A stretch of DNA of 64,000 nt from Pseudobdellovibrionaceae bacterium. GTDB taxonomy: Bacteria > Bdellovibrionota > Bdellovibrionia > Bdellovibrionales > Bdellovibrionaceae. The stretch covers positions 1 to 64,000 of the forward strand of contig JAEUWH010000087.1 in NCBI GenBank assembly GCA_016785955.1, read 5' to 3'. Within the stretch, counting starts at the first letter, position 1, and each line of letters opens with the position of its first letter. The translations under genes and the position numbers were made by a program. Shown piece after piece: positions 57,701-64,000 of this stretch. The notes below the pieces were generated by a model, which searched no databases, had not been told where the DNA came from, and saw nothing but the letters and a program-made list of their open reading frames with translations.

Positions 57701-58876
57701 ATGGCATCTTCATTAGATTTATGGATTGAATATATATTAAGATTTTCACATTTAGTGGCTGGGATTTCCTGGATCGGTAGCTCTTTTTATTTTATCTGGC
57801 TTGACAGCAGTTTTTTGCCGCCAGAAAAATCTCGTCGGAATGTAGAGGGCGAAGTTTTCATGGTGCATGGTGGTTTTTACTATCAAGTAGACAAAAAGAA
57901 AATTTTTCCGGGGGAAATTCCTAAAATACTTCATTGGTTCAAATGGGAAGCCACTCTTACTTGGATAACGGGATTTTTTCTTTTTGCGTTTTTATATTAT
58001 TTAAAAGGCGCCAGTCTTTTGATTGACCAACAAAAGGTAGCACTGTCGCAAGGGCAAGCGATTGGCTTAAGTATAGGTTTGGTGATTGGTTGTTGGTTAT
58101 TATATGATTTAATTTGGAATGCGAGCATCGTAAAATCCAAAATTACCAGTGTGATTTTATCGCTGCTGGGGTTTGTGGGTCTGGTGTACAGCTCGGTTCA
58201 AATTTTTAGTGGGCGTGGTGCATTCATATTGGTTGGCGTAATCATGGGCAGTTTAATGCTGTTAAATGTGTGGGTACGTATCCTGCCTGGTCAGGCGAAG
58301 ATGCTACGTGAGGCAACGGCGGGACAGATCCCTGATTATTCGGTGAGTTTAAAATCCAAGATTAGATCAGTCCACAATACATATTTTATTTTTCCAGTAC
58401 TGTTTATCATGCTTAGCAATCATTATCCTTTAATATACAATCATCACTGGAATTGGATACTGCTGATTATCCTCAGCGTTTCCGGAGCACTGGTTCGTCA
58501 TGCAATGGTCACTAAAAGCGCGAACGAGCGTTGGACTTTATTGCCGGCCAGTGTAGGCTTGATGGCGTTAGTGTTTGTGACGGCCCATGCCCCGGCTGTC
58601 GAAAAACTGAATCATACAGCTGTAACCGCTCTCGACTCTGCACAGGTGCGCGTGATTATTGATACCCGATGTGTTCGTTGCCATGCCACCCATAATACGG
58701 ACGAAAATTTTAAAGTGGCTGGTAAAAATGTTATTCTGGAAACTGAAGAGCAAATTAGACAGCATAAAGATATGATGATTAAACAAGTCGAGTCCAAAGT
58801 AATGCCGTTGGGAAACCTGACTCAGATGACCGACGAAGAGCGAGCCAGTCTATTAGACTATCTTCGAAAGCTATAG
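57701..58876 (+). CDS. puuD: PuuD-type membrane urate oxidase with cytochrome c domain
   Basis: A 391-residue integral membrane protein with about eight helices in the urate hydroxylase PuuD fold. Characteristic segments are RFSHLVAGISWIGSSFYFIW, MVHGGFYYQVDKKK and LHWFKWEATLTWITGF. The C-terminal part (about 310-391) is a cytochrome c domain with a haem site CVRCH and distal MPLGN methionine. PuuD oxidises urate to 5-hydroxyisourate and passes electrons to cytochrome c. Full domain set suggests activity. It lies upstream of a fusion protein carrying further urate-degradation domains, supporting a purine-catabolic role. Confidence 0.85.
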   Translation: MASSLDLWIEYILRFSHLVAGISWIGSSFYFIWLDSSFLPPEKSRRNVEGEVFMVHGGFYYQVDKKKIFPGEIPKILHWFKWEATLTWITGFFLFAFLYYLKGASLLIDQQKVALSQGQAIGLSIGLVIGCWLLYDLIWNASIVKSKITSVILSLLGFVGLVYSSVQIFSGRGAFILVGVIMGSLMLLNVWVRILPGQAKMLREATAGQIPDYSVSLKSKIRSVHNTYFIFPVLFIMLSNHYPLIYNHHWNWILLIILSVSGALVRHAMVTKSANERWTLLPASVGLMALVFVTAHAPAVEKLNHTAVTALDSAQVRVIIDTRCVRCHATHNTDENFKVAGKNVILETEEQIRQHKDMMIKQVESKVMPLGNLTQMTDEERASLLDYLRKL

Positions 58877-58936: not shown

Positions 58937-60532
58937 GTGCGAACATTATTTTTAGTAATTGTTTTATTTTTAAATGCTAGATCCCATTCTGAGGAAATTA
59001 AACTGCTTCGCATGGGTATGGTTGGCGAGCCGGCGACGTTGAACCCAGTTTTTCGCTCGTCCAGTGAAGAAGGGCTCATCAATGCGCTGGCCCTGCGTAG
59101 TTTATCTCACTTTAATGCGCACAGCGAACTAGTTCCCCATATCGCGATCAAAGAACCCAAATTTGTAGGCAATGAGTTAATTTTTGAAATCAAAAAAGAA
59201 GCCAGGTGGGGCGACGGTGTACCCATGACGTGTGAAGATTTCAATACCGGAAACTCGGCGGCGCTAAAGTTCCACGTTGAATCAGAGACAAAGATTGTGC
59301 GTATTGCTTCGTTTCCGGGATTTCCACAACAATGCCGAGTGATGTTTAGGATAAAAAAACCAATCTACACTTTGTATTTGGCACAGCCGTTGCCATCGCA
59401 TATCGAGAGTCGAATCGTAAATCAATCAAAGGATATAGAAGAATATCTGAAAAGAACGATGTATTCGACTAAACCCATGACGCCAGGATTATATAACGGT
59501 CCGTATATTTTGTCTTTGTATATGCCCGGTTCCCACCTGGAATATACTCGCAACCCGTTGTTCTATGGTCACACTTCACGAATCGAAAAAATTCAAGTTC
59601 GCATATTTAAAGATTTTCAAGGTATGCTGAATGCATTCCGCACACAAGAAATCGATATGATGATGCAAGGAGTTCCGTCTTCTCGAGTCAAAGAAATTCA
59701 AAAAATAATTGATGAAAAAAATTGGCCTTATCGGGTGGTTTCACGTGATATTACGAAATTAACTCATTTAGTATTCAATTTGGAAAGTCCGAACGTAAAG
59801 GATGTACGTGTTCGTCGTGCTTTAAGTATGATGATTGATGTGAAAGAATTCAAAGATGTGGTAAATGGAAACGGAACGTTGACTGGCAGTTTGGCGCATC
59901 CTTTAGATCCTATTTTCTTGAAGCAATACACGAGGCCTTTATACAAGTTAGACCGCAAGAAAGCCATGTCGCTACTGAAGGAAGCGGGGTTTACTAGAAA
60001 TTCTGAAAACAAACTGGTAGGCAGCAGTGGGAAACAGCTAGAGATCCGGTTACACTTCAATTCAGAGAATCCCGATCGCGAAGATGTCGCCATGTACTTG
60101 GAAAATAAGTGGAGCTCCCTGGGAATTAATGTTTCCATTAAAAAGAGTCTAAAGCGTGTATTAATGGGCGAATATTTAAAGAAGGGTAATTATGATGTCG
60201 CCGTTTTTGGTTGGTCACAACCGAAACTACAAATCAATTTAGATTTTTTTACATCTCAGGCCATTCCCACGGAGGCCAACAAATGGATTGGCTATAACTA
60301 TGCACGTTGGAACAATCTAAAAGTAGATCAGGAAATGACCAAAGCGGATGCCGAGTTTGAAATCAGCGGGATAAAAAAACATATGGATGCTTTTCAAAAA
60401 GAGTTTCGTGAGGATCTTCCGTGGTTGCCACTGTATTTTCAAGATCGTATCGTCGTTGTTCCCAAATACTTGAAAAGTTTTGAAATTTTTCCCGACTGGG
60501 AAGCTGAAACTTATTCTATCGAGAATTGGTAA
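58937..60532 (+). CDS. Orphan solute-binding protein (family 5, peptide-type)
   Basis: A 531-residue extracytoplasmic solute-binding protein. Signal peptide (about 1-18) leads into MVGEPATLNPVFR, the SBP_bac_5 signature region, with YNGPYILSLYMPGSHLEYTRNPLF and VFNLESPNVKDVRVRRALSM in the middle. Such proteins bind peptides, nickel or other oligo-substrates for ABC importers. No permease or ATPase gene is next to it. It lies between PuuD and the urate-degradation fusion; a transport role for that pathway would be inference. Start is GTG. Confidence 0.8.
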   Translation: MRTLFLVIVLFLNARSHSEEIKLLRMGMVGEPATLNPVFRSSSEEGLINALALRSLSHFNAHSELVPHIAIKEPKFVGNELIFEIKKEARWGDGVPMTCEDFNTGNSAALKFHVESETKIVRIASFPGFPQQCRVMFRIKKPIYTLYLAQPLPSHIESRIVNQSKDIEEYLKRTMYSTKPMTPGLYNGPYILSLYMPGSHLEYTRNPLFYGHTSRIEKIQVRIFKDFQGMLNAFRTQEIDMMMQGVPSSRVKEIQKIIDEKNWPYRVVSRDITKLTHLVFNLESPNVKDVRVRRALSMMIDVKEFKDVVNGNGTLTGSLAHPLDPIFLKQYTRPLYKLDRKKAMSLLKEAGFTRNSENKLVGSSGKQLEIRLHFNSENPDREDVAMYLENKWSSLGINVSIKKSLKRVLMGEYLKKGNYDVAVFGWSQPKLQINLDFFTSQAIPTEANKWIGYNYARWNNLKVDQEMTKADAEFEISGIKKHMDAFQKEFREDLPWLPLYFQDRIVVVPKYLKSFEIFPDWEAETYSIENW

Positions 60533-60548: not shown

Positions 60549-63500
60549 CTAGTAGACAAGTACGCGATGAATGCCACCGTCAGGGTATACTTTCACCCGG
60601 ATTTGATCAAATTTGTGTTTTGTTTGTATGCGAAATTCTTTCCTATTTCCGGCGAAAGCTTTTACTGCTGTTTTCGGCGCCAATTCGAGCCACTGTCCAT
60701 CTTTCAAAGCATCGATACTGATTGCCGAGGGGTTGTTATTAACGAAATATTTGAAGTCAAAAATCACAGATTGAATTGGCAAAGCTTGACCTAATTTTAG
60801 TACGATTTCTTCGAAGTGCCCAGGTGTGCGGCTGCGGGCGGATTCAAATCCGTCAAACATGTGAATAGGCGGGAATGGAGAAATCACTTGAGCCACGGGT
60901 CCGTAGTGCTGATTGCTGACGCTGACAACAGAGCCGCCAAATGCCGCAGAGGCTTGATTAATTGGTTTTCCATTTTGATTCAGGCGTGCAATGTTTTTTG
61001 TAATTTCCGTTGGGGTAGGATTGTACGTGATTGTAAGTGGCTTATGTGATTTTGGGATGACTTCATTAAAACGAATGCTGCAGGCTTCGTCCCATTTCTT
61101 AAAATGGACCGAGGTGTTTGCGGGTAGTTCCGAATACAGCCCTAACCTGGATAAACCGCCATCAGGAAATACGTGTACTTTAATTTTTTTATACGATTTT
61201 TCACTGAGGAGCGCGTCTTGTTTAACTTGCAATAGACCATGGCCCACAAGTGTTTTTTTAGGTAGTAGCAAATCCCAAATATTTTTTTGCGAGTCGTAAC
61301 CAAATATTTCAATACTCTCGACCTGGTTTCCATCATGATACTTAGTCGATACTTGAATATAACGAATGGGACCGGCTTTACGCATCTCAAATTCCATAGT
61401 GTGTAAAAGTGCCTCGTTATGGCGTTCGGATTCCCAGCTGTCCATCACCTTACCTTGAGCGCAAAATAGTTGTGGATCAAAAACTGGTTCAAAGGAACTG
61501 AGCAGGTTTTCGGCTCGTGCAAAACGTTCAGCAGTGACACTCAATATTTTTGCATCCACAGCTAAATTAAATGGGGCGAGTGGATCTTTAGGTCCCTTTT
61601 CAAAAATTGGATCGGGCCGGCATGGTTGAAAGGCATCAAAAATTAAATTTTTGTAACCACGATTTACGATCTGTTCCTGAGCAACTTGCTGGAAGTCAAA
61701 CTGAGAACGAAACATTTCAGTGCGTACACCGCTGAAGCCCAGTGTTTTAAGCAGCATTTGTGCGATTTCAGCAATAAATGCTATGGCCGCGTTATCCCCA
61801 TTTGCAAAAATAACAAAGCCTTTACCTTGATCCGGACCTACAAAGCAGTGCAAGAATAGCGCGCGAAAACCTTCGTTAGCGCCTTGGTGAACGGCAATTT
61901 TATTCTCGCCCGCTTCGGCAATGAAAACACCAAGCCCCATGCGCGTACCCATGAACTCGACACTGCCCTTATCTTTTCCATGCAGCATAGTCATTGCTGT
62001 GTCGTGGGAAATCGGACCGCATCCTTGAATGTCTTGATAAGCGCGCGTGAGGCTATTTAGAAACATTGCCATGTCCTGGGCAGAGCCCATTGCACCAGCC
62101 GCAAACGCGGGAAAAATCAATCGGCTTGAAGGTACTTCCTTTTGCTCATCAAAGTATCCAGTTGCATAGTGTTTACCAGGAATATTTTTTTGTTGAAACG
62201 TCAAATTAGAAAGGCCGAGTTTCTTAAAAAACGTTGTGGTGATATCAGAAATTGATTTTTTCTCGAGGCATTCAATTAGATACTCCAACACTAAAAATCC
62301 GCCACCGGAATAGCTAAACTGAGTGCCCGGCTTATTAATTACCGAGATATCTTTTAGAATCTGCGGCCATTCAGGAATCGATTGGTCCAGCGGGTAACCA
62401 TTTACATAGTGCCCACTTAAAGCTGTGTGATTAAGCAAGTGTTCAATTTGCACGGCATCTGAACTTAAACGAAATGAGGAGCCGGCTTTTGCCAACAATG
62501 AATTCACGGAGGTTTCGAGTGGAATATTTTTGTCTTTGAAATATTCCAAACAAAATGCACTGGCAATGGGTTTACTTAACGAAGCAATTTCAAATAATGT
62601 ATTGTCTTGAACGACATCTTGCCCCAGGCAGGCATGTCCAAAAGATAAAGCTTGTGTTTCATTGTCAGAATTAATTGCTATGCTGGCGCCGGTGATCTTG
62701 TGTCCAGTCAAAAGTTGCGTGACTGCATTTTTGAAATTGTCTGATGGATTTCCAGTAAGGCGTTTGTGAGTTATGTCCCACAGGGCTTCCCGCGCAGCGG
62801 TCATTTCTTGGTCGCGACTTTGCTGTAAACGATTTTTAAGTATTGTCAGCAGTTCCTGTGCGGTTTTATTTTTTGCAGAAACTAAAAATTTAAAACCAAA
62901 TTTTTTTTTGTATTGGTTCCCCAGATCCAAAAGTTCTTGGCGTGTGACTTCATCGCTGCCGAAGACGTTTTGTTGTTCAGAAGCGGCTTGGGCATCCAGG
63001 GTTTTCTTGGCCTCGCCAATATCGCCGTGAAAAGACGCTGACTCTAGAAGTTCGTCTAAAGAGAATCCAAGTATAGTCTTTTTGGCCAAGTCCAAATCTA
63101 AAATCGGACCGCGGGCCATTGTTTTTGCAAAATTTAAACTGCCGCAGGCTTCGAAATAATAATTTAGTCGTTCGACGTGCTTAGGCAGCTGATAGTGCCG
63201 AGGCGTTAGTTCATTGACCGTTTTCCAAGGATCTTCAGATTTTCGAATAGATTCAATGGTAAATGGTAATAACAATTCGGACGCAAACTCCACGGGATTC
63301 TTGTCGGTCATTAATTGCAGCATGATTTTCAGGGCGATAGGATACCATTTGGCCGTGTCGTTCGTATATTTAACTTGAACAAGTTTATCCGGCCTAGACA
63401 AATCTTTTCTGATAAAATGCATTTCTTGATGTACGATCTTGATAAACTCGTCGATTGGAAATCTGCCATGATATAGCTCGTGCCACACTTCCCACCTCGA

Positions 63501-64000
63501 ACGCTCTGCCGTTGCGAGATCGTCCATTACTCTAACGGAAACGCCGTTAACATGTGCGGGCAGAGCGACACAGCCATTTCCGCAAAGCCAATCTGTCAAA
63601 TATTGGAGTGATTGAAATACATTGTATCTAATTTCCTCAGGATGATTGTTCGCGATAAAATCTGATTCTTTGATATCTGCGACAATGAGCGAGCGGACAA
63701 AATTTTTATCAGTGCTTTTTAAACCTTCAATATCAGGTCCATGAATAAAGTTTAAGATAGCAGAGTGATGCTCGGGCAAAAGAAGCTGTTTTACAAGTTC
63801 TTCTAGGCCACCAGATTGACCGTTTCTATGTTGTCTCCAGCCTTCAACCAGAGCGATACCTAGACGTACAAAATCGGGGTGGGCGACCCAAAATCCAGAC
63901 AGATCACGCTTCATTTGCGTGATGACATCTTTGAAAAAACCAACCAAAGTCATCTGAAATGAAGGCGAGTATGGATCGGAATCTAGTGGCAGAATACCGT
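60549..64000 (-). CDS. Malate synthase - UraD - serine hydrolase - allantoicase fusion (partial, N-terminus off window)
   Basis: The frame is open to the right edge, so the N-terminus is missing. Numbering from the first visible ATG (63953): residues 1-245 match the C-terminal part of malate synthase A (GFWVAHPDFV; DWLCGNGCVALP; MDDLATAERSR with the likely catalytic Asp145). Residues about 246-400 match OHCU decarboxylase UraD (His309, SEQ 325-327, YKKKFGFKF). Residues about 401-745 are a beta-lactamase-fold serine hydrolase (SLSK with Ser458/Lys461, YSG at 548, HQG at 689). Residues about 765-1134 are an allantoicase with two repeats (VMDSWESERHN; PDGG at 930; FGGSVVSVSNQHYGP; FDGFESARSRTPGH; PDGG at 1124). 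Malate synthase condenses glyoxylate and acetyl-CoA; allantoicase yields ureidoglycolate and urea. Confidence 0.8.
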   Translation of the reverse strand, partial: GILPLDSDPYSPSFQMTLVGFFKDVITQMKRDLSGFWVAHPDFVRLGIALVEGWRQHRNGQSGGLEELVKQLLLPEHHSAILNFIHGPDIEGLKSTDKNFVRSLIVADIKESDFIANNHPEEIRYNVFQSLQYLTDWLCGNGCVALPAHVNGVSVRVMDDLATAERSRWEVWHELYHGRFPIDEFIKIVHQEMHFIRKDLSRPDKLVQVKYTNDTAKWYPIALKIMLQLMTDKNPVEFASELLLPFTIESIRKSEDPWKTVNELTPRHYQLPKHVERLNYYFEACGSLNFAKTMARGPILDLDLAKKTILGFSLDELLESASFHGDIGEAKKTLDAQAASEQQNVFGSDEVTRQELLDLGNQYKKKFGFKFLVSAKNKTAQELLTILKNRLQQSRDQEMTAAREALWDITHKRLTGNPSDNFKNAVTQLLTGHKITGASIAINSDNETQALSFGHACLGQDVVQDNTLFEIASLSKPIASAFCLEYFKDKNIPLETSVNSLLAKAGSSFRLSSDAVQIEHLLNHTALSGHYVNGYPLDQSIPEWPQILKDISVINKPGTQFSYSGGGFLVLEYLIECLEKKSISDITTTFFKKLGLSNLTFQQKNIPGKHYATGYFDEQKEVPSSRLIFPAFAAGAMGSAQDMAMFLNSLTRAYQDIQGCGPISHDTAMTMLHGKDKGSVEFMGTRMGLGVFIAEAGENKIAVHQGANEGFRALFLHCFVGPDQGKGFVIFANGDNAAIAFIAEIAQMLLKTLGFSGVRTEMFRSQFDFQQVAQEQIVNRGYKNLIFDAFQPCRPDPIFEKGPKDPLAPFNLAVDAKILSVTAERFARAENLLSSFEPVFDPQLFCAQGKVMDSWESERHNEALLHTMEFEMRKAGPIRYIQVSTKYHDGNQVESIEIFGYDSQKNIWDLLLPKKTLVGHGLLQVKQDALLSEKSYKKIKVHVFPDGGLSRLGLYSELPANTSVHFKKWDEACSIRFNEVIPKSHKPLTITYNPTPTEITKNIARLNQNGKPINQASAAFGGSVVSVSNQHYGPVAQVISPFPPIHMFDGFESARSRTPGHFEEIVLKLGQALPIQSVIFDFKYFVNNNPSAISIDALKDGQWLELAPKTAVKAFAGNRKEFRIQTKHKFDQIRVKVYPDGGIHRVLVY

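Follow-up and report, generated by a model that had tools for sequence, protein, structure and literature searches.

The enzymes closest in proposed function to the one considered here are the AllB/DAL1 and PuuE allantoinases, the reference for the latter reportedly being Ramazzina 2008. AllB/DAL1-type allantoinase is a cyclic amidohydrolase with a binuclear metal centre, as described in an excerpt of PMC9863593. PuuE has a polysaccharide-deacetylase (NodB) fold and is non-metal-dependent according to an excerpt of PMC10967932, which makes it a precedent for a recruited, unrelated allantoinase that does not depend on metal. Adjacent enzymes of urate breakdown are fused in Cryptococcus DAL2,3,3 and in the plant UraD-5-hydroxyisourate (HIU) hydrolase, and the yeast malate synthase DAL7 disposes of the glyoxylate from allantoin breakdown (both from an excerpt of PMC3646786).

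Here we describe a multidomain protein containing a beta-lactamase-fold serine hydrolase module that, judging from its distribution and genomic context, is very probably a non-orthologous allantoinase. The proposed reaction and place in the pathway are those of AllB/DAL1 (TIGR03178), which fills the module's slot in sister genomes; unlike that cyclic amidohydrolase, with its two metals in the excerpted account, the module has no profile match to the family. The fusion protein does not belong to the AllB family, and no amidohydrolase family is among its Pfam matches. The module also differs from the NodB-fold PuuE in belonging to PF00144, the superfamily of class C beta-lactamases, DD-peptidases and EstB, with which it has the fold, the SxxK motif and the tyrosine in common but only ∼20% identity, and from which it is set apart by HQG in place of KTG and by being part of a multidomain metabolic enzyme. 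The Cryptococcus and plant proteins join adjacent enzymes in like manner, but the excerpt of PMC3646786 describes neither a beta-lactamase-fold part nor a malate synthase in them. Our search of the open-access literature found no beta-lactamase-fold or serine allantoinase and no fusion of allantoicase with malate synthase. To our knowledge, covalent serine catalysis of allantoin opening has no earlier case.

Domain Organization and Gene Neighbourhood

The fusion open reading frame (ORF) occupies positions 60549-63998 on the minus strand of the window (the whole stretch of DNA analysed, 64,000 nucleotides) and is open at the window edge; the full gene spans 60549-65213 of the contig (G000 C46) and encodes 1554 aa. 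Pfam matches, all above cut-offs, give the order MS_TIM-barrel, MS_C, OHCU_decarbox (UraD), Beta-lactamase (PF00144) and two Allantoicase repeats from N to C terminus. The ORF as cut by the window matches MS_C, OHCU_decarbox, Beta-lactamase (residues 422-736 of this truncated frame, E 1.3e-27) and Allantoicase, and the sequence beyond adds MS_TIM-barrel. The principal features are as follows.

57701..58876, plus strand: PuuD, membrane cytochrome c urate oxidase, divergent partner gene (PF06181, E 1.7e-92)
60552..61676, minus strand: allantoicase domain, residues 1180-1554 (PF03561, two repeats, E 1e-42; yeast allantoicase 1sg3, E 2.7e-25)
61719..62738, minus strand: beta-lactamase-fold serine hydrolase module, proposed allantoinase, residues 826-1165 of 1554 (PF00144, E 2e-27; pLDDT 96; nearest PDB structure at Z 36)
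62757..63086, minus strand: UraD (OHCU decarboxylase) domain, residues 710-819 (PF09349, E 2.1e-20; phmmer matches to solved UraD chains)
63174..64000, minus strand: malate synthase part within the window (PF01274 and PF20659; malate synthase A 3cuz, E 5.3e-26)

Domain assignments are above the family cut-offs for the malate synthase TIM barrel (67.6 bits vs 26.4) and C-terminal domain (35.0 vs 23.1), for UraD (74.2 vs the Pfam cut-off of 24) and for allantoicase (146 vs 27). The malate synthase domain continues on the contig to 65213, outside the window. UraD, the module and allantoicase were modelled as one body with a pLDDT of 91.2 and a pTM of 0.87.

A separate gene for HIU hydrolase (PF00576) lies outside the window, its end 3 bp upstream of the fusion, and this transthyretin-type family is absent from the Pfam matches of the fusion itself. 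ORFs beyond it read as XdhC, XdhB, XdhA and a nucleoside deaminase, putative names taken from their translations. The pathway around the module is complete but for allantoinase and ureidoglycolate lyase. Between PuuD and the fusion lies a gene for a solute-binding protein of the peptide/nickel type (PF00496, window 58937-60532), the place of which is taken in two relatives (G004 and G005) by a shorter, different-looking ORF.

The presence of malate synthase in the chain would be explained by the role of DAL7, which in the excerpted yeast account removes allantoin-derived glyoxylate. Elsewhere in the same genome (L006:193-1809, G000 C58) another malate synthase, of ordinary appearance, adjoins an isocitrate-lyase-like gene, and the fused one is therefore probably dedicated to glyoxylate from purines.

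The Beta-Lactamase-Fold Module

The original prediction had placed a serine hydrolase with three intact active-site motifs at 61719-62753, between UraD and allantoicase. An intact PF00144 domain (96.7 bits vs a curated cut-off of 27) does lie there, its extent of 61719-62738 fits that placement, and all three motifs are present in the fold. The malate synthase part and the adjoining HIU hydrolase gene, which fall mostly or entirely beyond the window, had escaped the original prediction.

62571..62582, minus strand: SxxK motif S878-L-S-K881, nucleophile and base (49/49 fusion modules having that stretch)
62304..62312, minus strand: Y968-S-G motif, YxN position (50/50 fusion modules)
61881..61889, minus strand: H1109-Q-G motif, KTG/HxG position (50/50 fusion modules; HHA in G334)

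These counts come from 50 modules, many of them from the same species, that were found by whole-domain similarity and not chosen by motif; invariance was recounted on this set because search patterns had partly forced the motifs in a first alignment. HYVxG (49/49), N1113 and R1117 (each 50/50) are likewise invariant among them. Among six fusions, conservation of the module is similar to that of UraD and allantoicase. We gave no weight to dN/dS, since synonymous changes are saturated, several values are undefined and one pair is usable (0.04 for the module at dS 1.5).

The predicted structure (pLDDT 96.1, pTM 0.94) is nearest to the IS11 esterase 7spn (Z 36.0; 318 residues aligned at rmsd 2.5); a Pyrococcus PBP homologue, LACTB, a D-amino-acid amidase and the R61 DD-peptidase are also among the nearest solved folds. 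It is not a class C beta-lactamase by the NCBIfam model NF033085 (51.6 bits vs a curated cut-off of 415). YSGGG, a histidine at the HYV place and HxGxN are common to some of 15 nearby serine hydrolases compared, several of which aligned only in part; FMG and HYV occur in none of the 15. Plasmid-borne serine hydrolases of Spirosoma, Asticcacaulis, Vibrio and Xanthomonas (L287, L288, L289 and L290) have YSGGG and HxGxN like the module, and may represent the stock that gave rise to it. A quick tree that raised long-branch warnings unites 75 fusion modules in a single long-stemmed clade, apart from eight outgroup rows.

Distribution of the Fusion

The end-to-end fusion is present in 6 of 79 genomes, comprising the genome of origin and 78 relatives (G000, G004, G005, G017, G048 and G050), and the five other full proteins are 55-73% identical to the first; such recurrence of the architecture is far beyond chance. 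In a further relative (G001), 82 residues of the N terminus stand where a contig ends. A scan with the module alignment, one genome per species, found 106 relatives, and the best 80 of them were taken further. In every one of these best 80 loci of 106, a single ORF joins allantoicase to the module or to the C-terminal part of the module; all four domains are full-length in one ORF in 63 and at least partly present in 72, the remaining eight being interrupted by contig ends or frame breaks. In single assemblies the frame is broken within the module (L132:7544-12154) or within UraD (L075, L118), by error or decay.

The loci are labelled as Bdellovibrionota (including assemblies named Bacteriovorax and Oligoflexus) or Planctomycetota, apart from a few assemblies with odd labels. 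In two Planctomycetota loci (L091:6110-7114 and L117:5960-6847) the Uricase PF01014 replaces PuuD and the four-domain fusion is kept, which we count in favour of an allantoinase function. In both, genes for HIU hydrolase and xanthine dehydrogenase lie alongside in divergent orientation.

The original prediction had allowed for a recruited allantoinase or for a recruited 5-hydroxyisourate hydrolase. The former is favoured by the searches for AllB and PuuE and by the alternation of AllB with the module within one phylum, described below. The latter is extremely unlikely: HIU hydrolysis is likewise a ring opening, but a dedicated transthyretin-type enzyme is encoded 3 bp upstream, the ground on which we reject this function, and such an enzyme is present in 7 of the 7 fusion genomes examined and in the fetched stretch of 66 of the best 80 loci of 106 (PuuD in 48).

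It is also very unlikely that the module is a peptidase or esterase of the usual beta-lactamase-fold kind, acting on an unrelated substrate and attached by chance or serving as a scaffold. In favour of this reading, esterases, DD-peptidases, a D-amino-acid amidase and beta-lactamases are its nearest solved structures, and predatory bacteria apply such folds to the cell walls of their prey. Against it stand the lack of any module outside the purine fusion in the best 80 of 106 loci, its single long-stemmed clade in the quick tree, its invariant motifs, the occurrence of the fusion alongside different urate oxidases in two phyla and the lack of a detectable module in AllB clusters. A separate conserved protein in relatives without the pathway, which the original prediction had named as evidence against itself, was found neither in the 79 genomes (no stand-alone orthologue at E 1e-10), nor in these 80 loci, nor in a scan of the phylum, where stand-alone matches were weak paralogues of ∼20-31% identity.

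Known Allantoinases in Fusion Genomes

No AllB or PuuE match above cut-off was found in the genome of origin or in the fusion genomes searched, a genome-wide check that the original prediction had proposed. For AllB (TIGR03178) the counts are 0/7 fusion genomes in a first set, 0/50 in a named collection and 0/27 in the phylum, with species overlap between sets, and most genomes compared are metagenome-assembled. PuuE (TIGR03212) gave no match in the genome of origin and a single match among 12 genomes, at 20.7 bits vs a cut-off of 424.6, and was found in 0/51 genomes, 50 of them fusion-bearing; among the 50 genomes of the phylum comparison below, the PuuE search covered G024. Control genomes matched above cut-off (TIGR03178 in 2/14, TIGR03212 in 1/14), and the searches are therefore able to find both families.

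The sole AllB-like gene of the genome of origin is a dihydroorotase, present too in relatives without the pathway. Ten sub-cut-off TIGR03178 matches scanned from the first set comprise nine dihydroorotases and one dihydropyrimidinase. Sub-cut-off amidohydrolases occur in 35/50 fusion genomes of the collection, where 20 of 46 rows were typed (8 dihydroorotases and 12 dihydropyrimidinases), and in 15/27 of those in the phylum, where very few rows were typed. An allantoinase of another kind might be encoded elsewhere in the genome, for example among promiscuous members of this sub-cut-off group. A second allantoinase-like gene near the cluster of G050 was rejected as an allantoinase; it is a dihydropyrimidinase (TIGR02033, 608 bits), and its neighbours, named from ORF starts, read as pyrimidine-breakdown-like.

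Alternation of AllB and the Module

A UraD-module-allantoicase query matched 85 of 290 genomes of the phylum, which row reading sorted into 51 with all or part of the fusion, 23 with unfused UraD and/or allantoicase and 11 with a weak paralogue of the module only. AllB exceeds the curated cut-off in 21 of the 23 unfused genomes, and the other two (G188 and G282) have a partial AllB ending at a contig edge, with TIGR03178 as best family. The AllB gene or piece lies beside allantoicase in 22 of the 23 stretches, typically as PuuD-AllB-Alc-UraD-HIU hydrolase; in the exception, G282, the stretch ends at a contig edge and the AllB piece is on another contig. Neither the module nor a fusion-type malate synthase was found in these 23 stretches at an HMM limit of 1e-4. 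In one unfused-type cluster (L219:1287-3962, G279) PuuD and AllB share a single 892-aa ORF.

The genome-wide AllB search covered 31 of the 51 fused genomes (27 + 4). None of the 27, which are 91-100% complete, has AllB above cut-off, and 12 have no match at 1e-40; Fisher's test of AllB against fusion gives p 4e-12, counting only 21/23 and with kinship of genomes left in. Families f1, f17 and f18 each hold both forms, and the alternation is therefore not the result of one split.

AllB and a piece of the module were found together in a single genome, G334 (85% complete; loci L262 and L263, on C134 and C105), whose AllB was located through its UraD. It encodes a 617-aa AllB-UraD fusion (AllB above cut-off at 507 bits) with HIU hydrolase alongside and, on another contig, a module-allantoicase piece and a separate, stand-alone fusion-type malate synthase. 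The third motif is HHA in this piece and HQG in 50/50 other modules; the SxxK half is off the contig. We take this to be decay of the module in the presence of AllB, on the thin evidence of one assembled genome, and an intermediate or decayed state is possible. The altered motif and dismantled fusion count in favour of an allantoinase function, and the co-occurrence of AllB with the piece counts against it. Two ORFs reading as class V aminotransferases lie by the module-allantoicase piece and the malate synthase.

Ureidoglycolate lyase (PF04115) follows another pattern, occurring in 3/23 unfused AllB-type genomes vs 0/27 fusion genomes (p 0.09, not significant) and in 0/50 fusion genomes of the named collection. 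It is rare in both forms, and the swap therefore concerns allantoinase, with AllB alternating with the module. The absence of PF04115 matches from fusion genomes could instead be taken to mean that the module acts on ureidoglycolate, by releasing urea or hydrolysing an amide, and that an unrecognised enzyme opens allantoin; the module does share its chain with allantoicase, the maker of ureidoglycolate, and with malate synthase, the user of its product. We regard this as unlikely, however, because 20 of the 23 AllB genomes without the module also have no PF04115 match, so that AllB tracks the module and PF04115 does not. In addition, ureidoglycolate decays spontaneously to glyoxylate and urea according to an excerpt of PMC3793230, and a cyclic amide would better suit a serine acyl-transfer enzyme.

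Proposed Function

We favour allantoinase as the function of the module because the pathway is otherwise nearly complete, AllB alternates with the module, no AllB or PuuE was found and the motifs are invariant. The module would open the cyclic amide of (S)-allantoin, presumably supplied by the neighbouring UraD domain, and may pass allantoate directly to the neighbouring allantoicase domain. By analogy with the fold, Lys881 and Tyr968 would activate Ser878 to attack the ring amide carbonyl, the ring would open as the amide nitrogen departs, and hydrolysis of the acyl-enzyme would free allantoate, the course taken by serine beta-lactamases. Ureidoglycolate would then decay spontaneously or via the allantoicase domain, and the malate synthase at the other end would take away glyoxylate. 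With PuuD and HIU hydrolase adjoining, the cluster is predicted to run from urate to malate.

We think it likely that the module represents a third, independently evolved class of allantoinase, a metal-free serine acyl-enzyme recruited once from beta-lactamase-fold hydrolases into a single chain leading from OHCU through allantoin, allantoate and glyoxylate to malate, in Bdellovibrionota and Planctomycetota. The swap of AllB and module within one phylum makes the claim of an allantoinase testable. If true, it would mean that a widespread step of purine breakdown has a new solution, would provide a small enzyme for opening hydantoins that is expected to work without metal and would show a fold of cell-wall and antibiotic enzymes turned to metabolism. 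It would also close a gap in the pathway of many genomes of predatory-type bacteria and planctomycetes, in which a plain beta-lactamase annotation would mislead.
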